Origin: Bdellovibrionales bacterium GWA2_49_15
GTDB taxonomy: Bacteria; Bdellovibrionota; Bacteriovoracia; Bacteriovoracales; Bacteriovoracaceae
DNA: 64,000 nt
Direction: 5' to 3'
NCBI GenBank assembly: GCA_001769855.1
Contig: MEPP01000011.1
Coordinates: 1 to 64,000, forward strand
Part shown: in pieces, positions 16,117-19,374 of the stretch
How positions within the stretch are numbered: the first letter of the stretch is position 1
Layout: the number at the start of each line of letters is the position of its first letter
The notes under the pieces: model-generated
Database searches by the model: none
The model's input: the letters and a program-made list of their open reading frames with translations, nothing else
What the model was told of the DNA's origin: nothing
Translations under genes and position numbers: made by a program

Positions 16117-17484
16117 CTATCCCTTAACACAGATATGAGGCGATAGCTGAGCAACCTTCAGCGCCAGCCGGGCCTTCTCGGCGGCATCGACAACTTCTCT
16201 GAGATCTTTATAGGCGAGGGGGGCCTCTTCCGCGACACCTCGATAGGAGCCGCTTCGGATCAGAATTCCCTGCTCCCGAAGATCTCTAATTATATCCGGA
16301 CCGTTCCACAATTTTTTGGCTTCAGTGCGACTCATGGCCCTGCCGGCACCATGGCAGGCAGAGCTGAATGAAAGCGCCTCAGCTTCATTGGTACCAACGA
16401 GGACAAATGATCCTACCGCCATATTCCCGCCGATAAACACCGGCTGACCTATGGCCTTGAATCTCTCTGGCAACTCTTCATGCCCGGGGCCATAGGCACG
16501 AGTTGCCCCTTTTCGATGAACAAATAATTTTTTTCGCTTTCCATTCACATCGTGCCACTCGCTTTTACAAGTATTGTGGGAGACGTCGTAGACCAATCTC
16601 AATTCAATATTGGGTATAAGTTCAGTGAAGGCCTCACGGACTAGATGAGTAATAATCTGCCGGTTGGCCAAGGCGCAGTTAATAGCGCCTCTCATGGCAC
16701 CCAGATAACTTTCCCCCAACGTCGAATGAAGCGGAACACAGGCTAGCTCTCGGTCGGGCAGATAAATTTGAAATTGCTTGGCCGCTGTGACCATCGAGCG
16801 CAGGTAGTCGGTCCCGATCTGATGACCGAGACCGCGAGAACCGCAGTGAATACTGATGACGACGTCATTTAACTCAAGACCCATCGCCTCGGCTGCCGGA
16901 CGGTGGAAAATTTCTTTGACCTCCTGGACCTCCAGATAATGATTTCCGGAGCCCAGTGTTCCCATTTCCTCTCTCTGACGATCCTTCGCTTTTTGCGAGA
17001 TCATTTCAGGATTGGCACCGGGCATTTGTCCCCGTTCCTCGGTGTGATCAAGATCGGCCGCCGTCCCGTGTCCGTTATCAACGGCCCACCGGGCACCACC
17101 CATCAGCATATCGTTCATCTCGCGGTCGGAAAGCAAAATCTTACCCCGGCTTCCCGTGCCGGAGGGAATTCTTTTATAAAGAAGGTTGGCCAAGGCCTCC
17201 TTGTAGGGAGTGAGTTCGGAGATTTTTAATTTGGCATGAAGCAAGCGTACACCGCACGAGATATCAAAGCCGACACCACCGGCCGAAATGATGCCGCCTT
17301 GGTCGGGATCAAAGGCCGCGACGCCGCCAATGGGAAAACCATATCCCCAGTGCGCGTCTGGCATGGCATACGCCTTATCAACAATGCCCGGTAACATGGC
17401 GACATGGCATAACTGCTCATAAACCTTTTGATCCATTTTTAAGATGAGCGCTTCGGTGGCATAAATTCGCGCCGCGACCTTCAT
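16117..17484 (-). CDS. rtcB: RNA ligase RtcB (GTP-dependent 3'-phosphate RNA ligase)
   Basis: RtcB joins RNA ends bearing 2',3'-cyclic or 3'-phosphate to 5'-OH ends using GTP and manganese. The 455-residue length is normal. Family signatures are present: MPDAHWGYGFPIGGVAAF, GVGFDISCGVRLL (metal-binding DxxCG), NHYLEVQEV, ISIHCGSRGLGHQIG, the YDVSHNTCK stretch, HRKGATRAYGPG (HRKGAT, GMP region), IGGNMAVGSFVL and the late SACHGAGRAMSR whose His is the guanylylation site in characterised RtcB. It is downstream of archease with an 83-base gap holding a stem-loop, and an intron-like RNA precedes archease. Confidence 0.97.
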   Translation of the reverse strand: MKVAARIYATEALILKMDQKVYEQLCHVAMLPGIVDKAYAMPDAHWGYGFPIGGVAAFDPDQGGIISAGGVGFDISCGVRLLHAKLKISELTPYKEALANLLYKRIPSGTGSRGKILLSDREMNDMLMGGARWAVDNGHGTAADLDHTEERGQMPGANPEMISQKAKDRQREEMGTLGSGNHYLEVQEVKEIFHRPAAEAMGLELNDVVISIHCGSRGLGHQIGTDYLRSMVTAAKQFQIYLPDRELACVPLHSTLGESYLGAMRGAINCALANRQIITHLVREAFTELIPNIELRLVYDVSHNTCKSEWHDVNGKRKKLFVHRKGATRAYGPGHEELPERFKAIGQPVFIGGNMAVGSFVLVGTNEAEALSFSSACHGAGRAMSRTEAKKLWNGPDIIRDLREQGILIRSGSYRGVAEEAPLAYKDLREVVDAAEKARLALKVAQLSPHICVKG

Positions 17485-17567: not shown

Positions 17568-17987
17568 CTATACATCAACCACGCACTGAGCGATCCATCC
17601 GCCGTTAATTTTTCCGACCTTCAGCTCAGTCATGGTTGCGCCCTTGATCTCGGTCGCTGGGTCATGTTTCTCGGGCGTTACAATTTCACCCCACAACTCA
17701 CCCTCTAAAACCGAATTTTTGATATGGACTCTGGCATCTGCAAAAACCAGATTTTTAGTATCCATTTCATAGATCACAGTATTGATCCAATCAAAAAATA
17801 AAAGCTCCGCGTCCGCTTCTTCACATTTAAGATTTAATTTTATTTGAGGAGAAACATTGTGTGGATCTGTGACAACCGCGGTTAATGCCAATACTGCCGT
17901 GGCGAAGGCCTCTTCCATGGTTTTGCCAAAACCGCGGATTCCAATATCCGCATCGTGTGAAAAATTTTCCCATTTTAAGGTCTTCAT
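17568..17987 (-). CDS. Archease (RtcB-activating protein)
   Basis: Archease speeds guanylylation of RtcB and lets it turn over many times. The 139-residue product shows the family core: FSHDADIGIRGFGKTMEEAF at the N-terminus (with the metal-binding Asp of HDADIGI), LLFFDWINTVIYEMD in the middle and KGATMTELKV with GWIAQCVVDV at the end. It is the gene directly upstream of rtcB, the usual pairing. No ribosome-binding site precedes ATG 17987; the upstream bases are TCTATCTATTTTAT. The open frame extends a few codons upstream without a stop, into the 3' end of the group II intron-like RNA. Translation may therefore depend on sequence brought close by splicing, which is inference. Confidence 0.95.
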   Translation of the reverse strand: MKTLKWENFSHDADIGIRGFGKTMEEAFATAVLALTAVVTDPHNVSPQIKLNLKCEEADAELLFFDWINTVIYEMDTKNLVFADARVHIKNSVLEGELWGEIVTPEKHDPATEIKGATMTELKVGKINGGWIAQCVVDV

Positions 17988-17992
17988 ATAAA

Positions 17993-18815
17993 ATAGATAG
18001 AGGGCGGACTTTTATCAGAACCCAATCCTCAAAAAGTCCACCACCTTTCTTTTCTTACCGCACGTTGGGTTTTCCCCAGTACGGCGAAGGGCCGGTATTT
18101 CAAATGCGGCATTCGTTTCCAGCTATTGGATTAAGACGATCTTGTCGTACACCAATAGCATCAACTTGACCTGCATCCTTCGCTTCGACACTTGCATGTC
18201 GAAACCACCATTAGAGTTTTTAGATTATAAGCCTAAAAACTCAACCCTAGAGACCCTCGCTTTATTAGAGTTTGTGTTGACTCTAACTTCAAACACTTGT
18301 CGGCCTCTACTGCCCCGCTTGTTGGCGACAAAAAGTTTCCCGTTTGTCGTAATGAGGAAAATGATCTTCCTCAAAGTCCTTCAAGTGGTTCCGAGCTTTC
18401 TCCGATCATCCTTCCCGACATGTCATCCCTAGTACCCCTAGAATTCGCTCACTGCCTCTGTCTTATCTCTTCGTGAACGACTTGGGCCTTAACCTCATTT
18501 GAAAAAGGTTCGGCAAACTATCGCCTGTCACCATGGAAACAGGTCGATTTGAGGTAAAAAAGGTTCACTTGCGCTACAACCTATCGGTTAGCTTCGAGGA
18601 GTATTCAATTCCTCTTTTAACACCAGCATCAAATTAAAAAGTTGCCCCTTTAATTCATGGCGGAAGCTTTGGAAACCATAAGACCCATTTTCCATCAGGA
18701 CTTTCACCTGTGAAGGATCGGATAGCTTCGCTACCTTCAAACAAGATCGAGCTTACTCTTTTTAATTTTTAAAGCAATTTGAGAGATCTCACTTTGGTCA
18801 TGAGTAAATTGTCAC
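17993..18815 (-). ncRNA. ORF-less group II intron or intron-derived RNA, upstream of archease-rtcB
   Basis: About 820 bases with no convincing coding frame fold into many strong hairpins on the minus strand. Perfect stems include 18214-18223/18233-18242 (10 bp), 18122-18129/18152-18159 (8 bp), 18184-18190/18197-18203 (7 bp), 18265-18271/18280-18286 (7 bp) and 18326-18332/18343-18349 (7 bp). Near the 5' end CAGGTGAAAGTCCTG resembles the GGTGAAAGTCC motif of bacterial group II domain I. A domain V match follows at 18088-18055, and a domain VI-like hairpin ends near 17995 with an A:A mismatch at 17998 that could be the branch point. The 5' boundary is uncertain: GTGAC at 18815 or GTGAG at 18792. 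No reverse transcriptase or maturase is encoded, so any splicing would need a protein from elsewhere. Confidence 0.7.
18055..18088 (-). ncRNA. Group II intron domain V
   Basis: The 34-base RNA pairs GCCGTAC with GTGCGGT around a distal TGGG/CCCA stem and a GAAAA loop. The two-base AC bulge sits exactly where it does in known domain V (positions 24-25). The catalytic triad position reads CGC with the expected G:U pair, the variant known from some bacterial introns; the more common form is AGC. One C:A mismatch at the helix base is the only defect. Confidence 0.75.
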
Positions 18816-18903
18816 CTCATTAAATAAGTGGTGGTAGCGATTCTTGCTCTCGAAAGGATTTAAAGTATAACAATGCCGTTCTAATGAAAGAGGAGAGAAA
18901 ATA

Positions 18904-19374
18904 ATGGCCATTAAATCTGTCTGCAAAACTGACGTTGTAACAATAGATAAGAATTCTACACTCTTGAGTGTTTCGACGGTAATGCAAAATTATCATGTTG
19001 GAAGTGTCGTCGTGGTGGAGGGGATGAATGGGAAGCGAATTCCTGCCGGTATTATTACTGACCGTGATATCGCTCTGGCCCTTATCTCATCTACAAAACC
19101 ACAGGAACTGAGAGTGGAACACATTATGCAAAGTGCTCCGATCACGGTGAAAACGAATGAGGGTATTTTTGAAATAATTATTAAGATGCGGGACGGTGGT
19201 ATAAAAAGAATTCCTGTAGTTAATGATGATGGTTCCTTGTACGGGATTGTCTGCGCTGATGATTTGCTGACTCTTATGAGCGAGGAGATTCAGAATTTAT
19301 CTAAAATTAATGAAACCCAGATTAACAAAGAAAAAGGCACCACGCTACCGGCCGAGAAAACAATCACAATGTAA
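18904..19374 (+). CDS. Protein with two CBS domains
   Basis: The 156-residue product is a tandem CBS pair. Each unit has the usual pattern: MQNYHVGSVVVVEG...GIITDRDIALAL for the first, and MRDGGIKRIPVVNDDGSLYG with GIVCADDLLTLM for the second. Such pairs bind adenosine nucleotides (ATP, AMP, SAM) and act as energy or ligand sensors. The start has AGGAGA upstream. The gene is followed after 16 bases by dnaK and then dnaJ, so the three form an operon. The CBS protein may tie chaperone production to cell energy status, which is inference. Upstream bases 18816-18903 must contain the promoter. Confidence 0.9.
   Translation: MAIKSVCKTDVVTIDKNSTLLSVSTVMQNYHVGSVVVVEGMNGKRIPAGIITDRDIALALISSTKPQELRVEHIMQSAPITVKTNEGIFEIIIKMRDGGIKRIPVVNDDGSLYGIVCADDLLTLMSEEIQNLSKINETQINKEKGTTLPAEKTITM

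Follow-up and report, generated by a model that had tools for sequence, protein, structure and literature searches.

Group II introns that lack an open reading frame (ORF) are rare and short-lived in bacteria and nearly always share their genome with a related maturase, and it has been noted that ORF-less introns with a domain V unlike known ones could have been overlooked (PMC4424553). Circularly permuted group II RNAs have been described (PMC8637638) and are the nearest precedent for a group II RNA that is not an intron. The RNA considered here lies in a 64,000-nucleotide stretch of DNA (the window) from Bdellovibrionales bacterium GWA2_49_15 and is a real, ORF-less group II intron-like RNA on the minus strand, running from about 18742 to 17995. 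It belongs to a family that is inherited within its phylum, usually without a maturase, and found mostly upstream of co-directional stress genes. Comparison of the copies suggests that a group II intron RNA has been domesticated by its host here and serves as a leader or non-coding RNA (ncRNA) induced by stress.

Comparison of the window with Rfam produced a match to group-II-D1D4-4 (RF02003) in the 5′ part of the RNA, which scored 51.1 bits where the cut-off is 49 (E=2.3e-8 for the window), and the minus strand between archease and the divergent CBS-domain gene has no ORF that reaches 80 aa, in keeping with the first-pass annotation, which had described a group II intron-like RNA with no coding frame. 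The GGTGAAAGTCC motif assigned there to domain I (DI) is present in the RNA, the domain VI (DVI)-like hairpin placed just before archease stops 12 nt short of that gene's ATG (17987), and the identities given to archease and RtcB were confirmed by Pfam. The 5′ limit of 18815 did not hold, since the conserved RNA starts near 18742, with +1 predicted at 18742 to within about 2 nt, and positions 18743–18815 are promoter and not intron; a 5′ end at GTGAC (18815) was excluded because the paralogues cease to resemble one another at the promoter block. The last base shared between copies is 17995, and the archease ATG follows 8 nt further on. Where at least five long perfect hairpins had been reported, only two perfect inverted repeats of at least 10 nt were found, one of them with arms 116 nt apart. 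The domain V (DV) that had been described could be retained in part: its CGC triad and AC bulge are present, but it is atypical in having an upper hairpin of 13 nt instead of 14. Despite this triad and 2-nt bulge there was no match to the Rfam DV/DVI model RF00029 even at E≤10, and the family may be absent from DV-based surveys because that model does not match its atypical DV. In the DVI-like hairpin of the window copy a G (18005) faces a U (18040) where the other copies of the genus have A. Coordinates are collected in the table below. Across the loci of the genus, RNA copies sit among genes for Hsp20, USP, S30AE, Lon and DnaK. A weak SAM-III riboswitch-like match on the plus strand before the CBS-domain gene (18835–18906, 19.4 bits) scored far under its cut-off of 45 and is probably due to chance.

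Table. Features of the RNA locus in the window
Feature	Position	Strand	Basis or remarks
Group II intron-derived RNA, ORF-less	17995..18742	−	Shared ends of paralogues, family, covariation, between-species identity
Domain I	18392..18730	−	Closing helix 18730-18724/18397-18392; contains RF02003 match 18713-18569
Domain II	18312..18391	−	Helix 18391-18381/18322-18312; name assigned by order
Domain III	18250..18307	−	Helix 18307-18302/18255-18250; name assigned by order
Domain IV region	18088..18248	−	Helix 18248-18244/18092-18088; no ORF
Domain V	18056..18088	−	CGC triad 18086-18084, AC bulge 18065-18064, 13-nt upper hairpin
Domain VI-like terminal hairpin	17999..18046	−	Sequence, alignment, fold
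Crp/Fnr-type palindrome TGA-GATCTC-TCA	18780..18791	−	Centred 43 nt upstream of the predicted RNA start
archease	17568..17987	−	Pfam PF01951
rtcB	16117..17484	−	Pfam PF01139
Divergent CBS-domain gene	18904..19374	+	Pfam PF00571; followed by dnaK (HSP70)

The source genome carries three copies of the RNA, at 69–81% identity, and further copies are present in both other genomes of the genus. When 84,980 genomes were scanned with a DV pattern, 20 stretches were obtained, 16 of which are Bdellovibrio-lineage records or the same RNA type, and the corresponding scan of viral contigs gave 0 matches. A covariance model built from the 3′ part of the RNA (R1) was used to search 369 genomes of the phylum Bdellovibrionota, as assigned by record titles, and matched in 41 of them. 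Two of these matches (G211, locus L139, and G265, at G265:C7:36011-36424) correspond to ordinary maturase-encoding group II introns beside maturase genes and were left out of the count, giving 39 RNA-bearing genomes; blastn matches in G026 and G028 were short, that in G028 lying in an apparent coding region, and both were treated as chance. The RNA is about 750–830 nt long across the family, and RF02003 matches above the cut-off were also obtained in several relatives. Forty full-length copies share one consensus fold of 125 pairs, in which 93% of cells are paired compared with 71% in column shuffles and 36–44% in slid controls, and 1227 double-change cells were observed against a shuffle mean of 346 and a maximum of 403. 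These covariation counts are approximate, as the alignment is rough in domain IV and was itself used to derive the structure, but the excess of double changes is too large for either to matter. For individual helices of the family alignment, 92% of cells are paired in domain II, with double changes in seven pairs, and 99.6% in domain III. The copies have a six-domain group II architecture with covarying helices, domain I being identified by RF02003 and domains II–IV by order only. Conserved pairing in homologues, which had been proposed as a check, was found in these 40 copies as one covarying fold from DI to DV, and the earlier suggestion that an intron-derived RNA heads the operon is borne out by the covarying family found across the phylum.

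The two species that have the archease locus share 86.6% identity in the RNA, and the corresponding DNA-level values are about 75% for archease, rtcB and the CBS-domain gene and 75.5% for the 100 nt upstream; the RNA is more conserved than the flanking genes. A tree of the copies groups them by host family and, within the window's genus, by locus across species, with the three loci of the genus predating its species, and this pattern fits vertical descent with old duplications. In a second genome of the genus (G002) RNA copies lie at the ends of contigs C22, C43 and C45 (L045, L043 and L042) and are identical where they overlap. The assembly was probably broken there by recently converted or duplicated copies, and the identity of two of these copies where comparable is probably due to gene conversion. 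The genes neighbouring these contig-end loci differ between species.

Transcript start sites in this family were predicted from promoter motifs. Outside family f1 a sigma54 −24/−12 box (TGGCAY-N5-HYGCW; TGGCAC/T, 5 nt, xTGCA/T) is found at a fixed distance in 21 of 23 copies, distributed over five families (f3, f6, f11, f12 and f15), where 0.12 would be expected from the background rate. The box lies at −41 to −43 from the anchor GCGA, or at −62 in an f12 subgroup with an extra 5′ hairpin, and a count of 11–12 nt from the −12 element places the predicted start 0–4 nt from the conserved first bases of the RNA (GUGUG, GUGUUC or GUGCC). The rpoN gene is present in 40 of the 41 R1-matching genomes. 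The scan found no sigma54 box in the window's genus, where the RNA is preceded by a Crp/Fnr-type palindrome at a position (−43) close to the class II position of −41.5. An exact TGA-N6-TCA is found at −43 in four of nine genus copies (the two that precede archease and a pair from another locus) and at −61 or −65 in four others, the right half (T/C)TCA is kept in all nine, and a gene for a Crp-family regulator adjoins one RNA locus of the genus. Part of family f1 has a −35/−10-like pair (TTGGA, about 17 nt, GATACT), as judged by eye. The other promoter types of f1 members, which were partly judged by eye, count against the reading proposed below. The three promoter types all end at one nucleotide, the predicted nucleotide 1 of the RNA, leaving no room for a 5′ exon, and the RNA would therefore not be an ordinary inserted intron.

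At the other end of the RNA, the terminal hairpin is followed by a run of at least five T in 18 of 49 copies, compared with 9.8% of random windows; the window copy has no U-run at this position. The hairpin is followed by 5–9 T in L105, L106 and L112 of family f12 and in L048 and L107 of family f1, and in these copies domain VI has apparently turned into an intrinsic terminator. The first downstream ORF has the same direction as the RNA in 37 copies and the opposite direction in 11. Genes for CBS-domain proteins (at least nine copies, three families) and Hsp20 (four copies, two families) are the commonest downstream, with FtsH, a sigma54 response regulator, PEP carboxylase and others each found at single loci.

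We propose that the RNA is switched on with its own promoter, by sigma54 in five families and by a Crp/Fnr-type activator in the window's genus, and that this transcription would take place under stress. On balance, a role in cis as a leader, exerted through the terminal hairpin or through 3′ cleavage, is somewhat probable. Working mainly in this way, it would form a large structured leader at the 5′ end of the transcript and control the amount of transcription, or of usable mRNA, that arrives at the next gene. A likely lever is the terminal DVI hairpin, which together with a U-run resembles an intrinsic terminator in many copies; a possible second one is cleavage at the former 3′ splice site. 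In the window the RNA would lead the archease–rtcB mRNA, and ordinary splicing would not be expected. A next gene on the opposite strand (11 of 48 copies, e.g. in G185, G083, G317_C243 and G319_C14) and the U-runs at the 3′ ends count against a cis leader and would better fit a free ncRNA. Together with a promoter of its own at nucleotide 1, they make it possible, if on the unlikely side, that the RNA is a stand-alone ncRNA acting in trans as a sponge, a scaffold or a guide via former exon-binding loops, with downstream genes that are merely co-regulated neighbours. Against this stand the strong tendency of the downstream genes to be co-directional and to encode CBS-domain or Hsp20 proteins, and the window locus, where no terminator separates the RNA from archease.

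The family retains domain V, the DI motifs and 5′ ends of GUGYG-like sequence, and given these some catalytic activity may remain. That the RNA is, phylum-wide, a stress-induced riboregulator starting at intron nucleotide 1 whose active site is still used seems doubtful; such an active site, if kept, might cut the old 3′ splice site to free the downstream mRNA or, alternatively, act on RNAs in trans like a spliceosomal snRNA.

Splicing itself is improbable. The group II fold with its triad and bulge, the RF02003 match and the existence of ORF-less introns that splice (PMC4424553) would be consistent with a splicing-competent ORF-less intron in a 5′ UTR, either self-splicing or served by a maturase in trans. 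The predicted starts, however, leave only 0–4 nt of 5′ exon, and no 5′ exon carrying an IBS is predicted from promoters that end at nucleotide 1; it is chiefly this apparent lack of a 5′ exon that speaks against an inserted splicing intron, and the splicing competence put forward in the first-pass annotation is not supported. Two G002 copies agree throughout the 85 nt of intron that they share, but the sequence just upstream of them is unrelated, and one intron sequence therefore cannot pair with both as 5′ exons. A bulged branch-point adenosine in DVI is not conserved, the window copy having a G–U pair; an automatic count of bulged A, which reached 18 of 40 copies and took in 1x1 mismatches as well, was left out of this assessment. 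Group II maturases are absent from 35 of the 39 RNA-bearing genomes, including the source genome, and no GIIM domain was found in either the source genome or G002. A search of the rest of the source genome for a maturase, as had been advised, yielded as its sole RVT_1 protein a Drt8-like defence reverse transcriptase (PADLOC E=1e-130), which lies next to an Avs2-like gene in a defence island (L009, G000:C1; 1993–3534 and 4453–8628).

An intron that is still mobile and inserts by preference in or beside promoters, the promoter association then reflecting a choice of target site, would account for several copies per genome and for the near-identical sequence at the G002 contig ends. This is very improbable given the lack of a maturase in most of the genomes, the three different promoter types ending at the same nucleotide and the tree, in which copies group by host family and the genus's three loci are older than its species. 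In addition, the stretch that separates the −12 element from the RNA, with which exon-binding sites would pair, shows no conservation. Least probable of all is the dedicated RNA-repair circuit suggested at the outset, in which the RNA would serve RtcB/archease specifically, as substrate or as regulator. Two species of the genus do keep the RNA at their archease locus, but only these two of about 49 copies, at one locus, precede archease, archease is present in just four of 39 relatives, and group II hydrolysis leaves 3′-OH and 5′-phosphate ends, which are not RtcB substrates.

Among described RNAs, the likeness to RF02003, a model of domains I–IV, consists in the 5′ part of DI, which matches above the cut-off; RF02003 describes introns, whereas in the family copies a promoter adjoins nucleotide 1, and there is neither an ORF nor an apparent 5′ exon. 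The ORF-less bacterial introns, such as C.te.I1 of Clostridium tetani and those that use a maturase in trans (PMC4424553), likewise have no intron-encoded protein, and the C. tetani genome, like most genomes of the family, is without a maturase. These introns splice and lie inside genes, in contrast to the Bdellovibrionota family with its promoter at nucleotide 1. ORF-less introns of Scalindua (L063) and of Firmicutes (L056), Thermoplasmatota (L061) and deltaproteobacterial (L068) metagenome-assembled genomes share the same DV core (CCGUAYUGGGGAAAACYCAACGUACGG) and an RF02003 match, but their 3′ ends (..GUACUCUACUC..) resemble an ordinary branched DVI, unlike the family, and no sigma54 box was noticed at these four loci. 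L056 has attC-like flanking sequence, as judged by eye, and L068 has further group II matches (RF02005 and RF00029). Within the same phylum, the merRNA of Bdellovibrio bacteriovorus, a c-di-GMP riboswitch ncRNA, is a leader-type RNA that acts as an ncRNA (PMC3627812); it is unrelated to the group II-like RNA, and the paper describing it makes no mention of introns. No description of the Bdellovibrionota RNA family was found in the literature searched, a set outside which most subscription papers lie. Standard DV searches miss the family, so similar families may be hidden elsewhere.

The circularly permuted group II RNAs (PMC8637638) are, like this family, no longer ordinary retroelements and are kept without a reverse transcriptase of their own. 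They differ in that the domain order of the family is the normal one from DI to DVI, DV–DVI not being placed before DI, and its transcript is predicted to begin at intron nucleotide 1. If the interpretation is correct, this family, inherited vertically without a maturase and equipped with promoters of its own, would represent a bacterial group II ribozyme turned host RNA, a transition that has otherwise been suggested for how spliceosomal snRNAs arose. The family has a DV of the unlike-known kind foreseen in PMC4424553 and is spread over a phylum, and would contrast with the reviewed picture of immobile group II derivatives as rare and not lasting in bacteria (PMC4424553).
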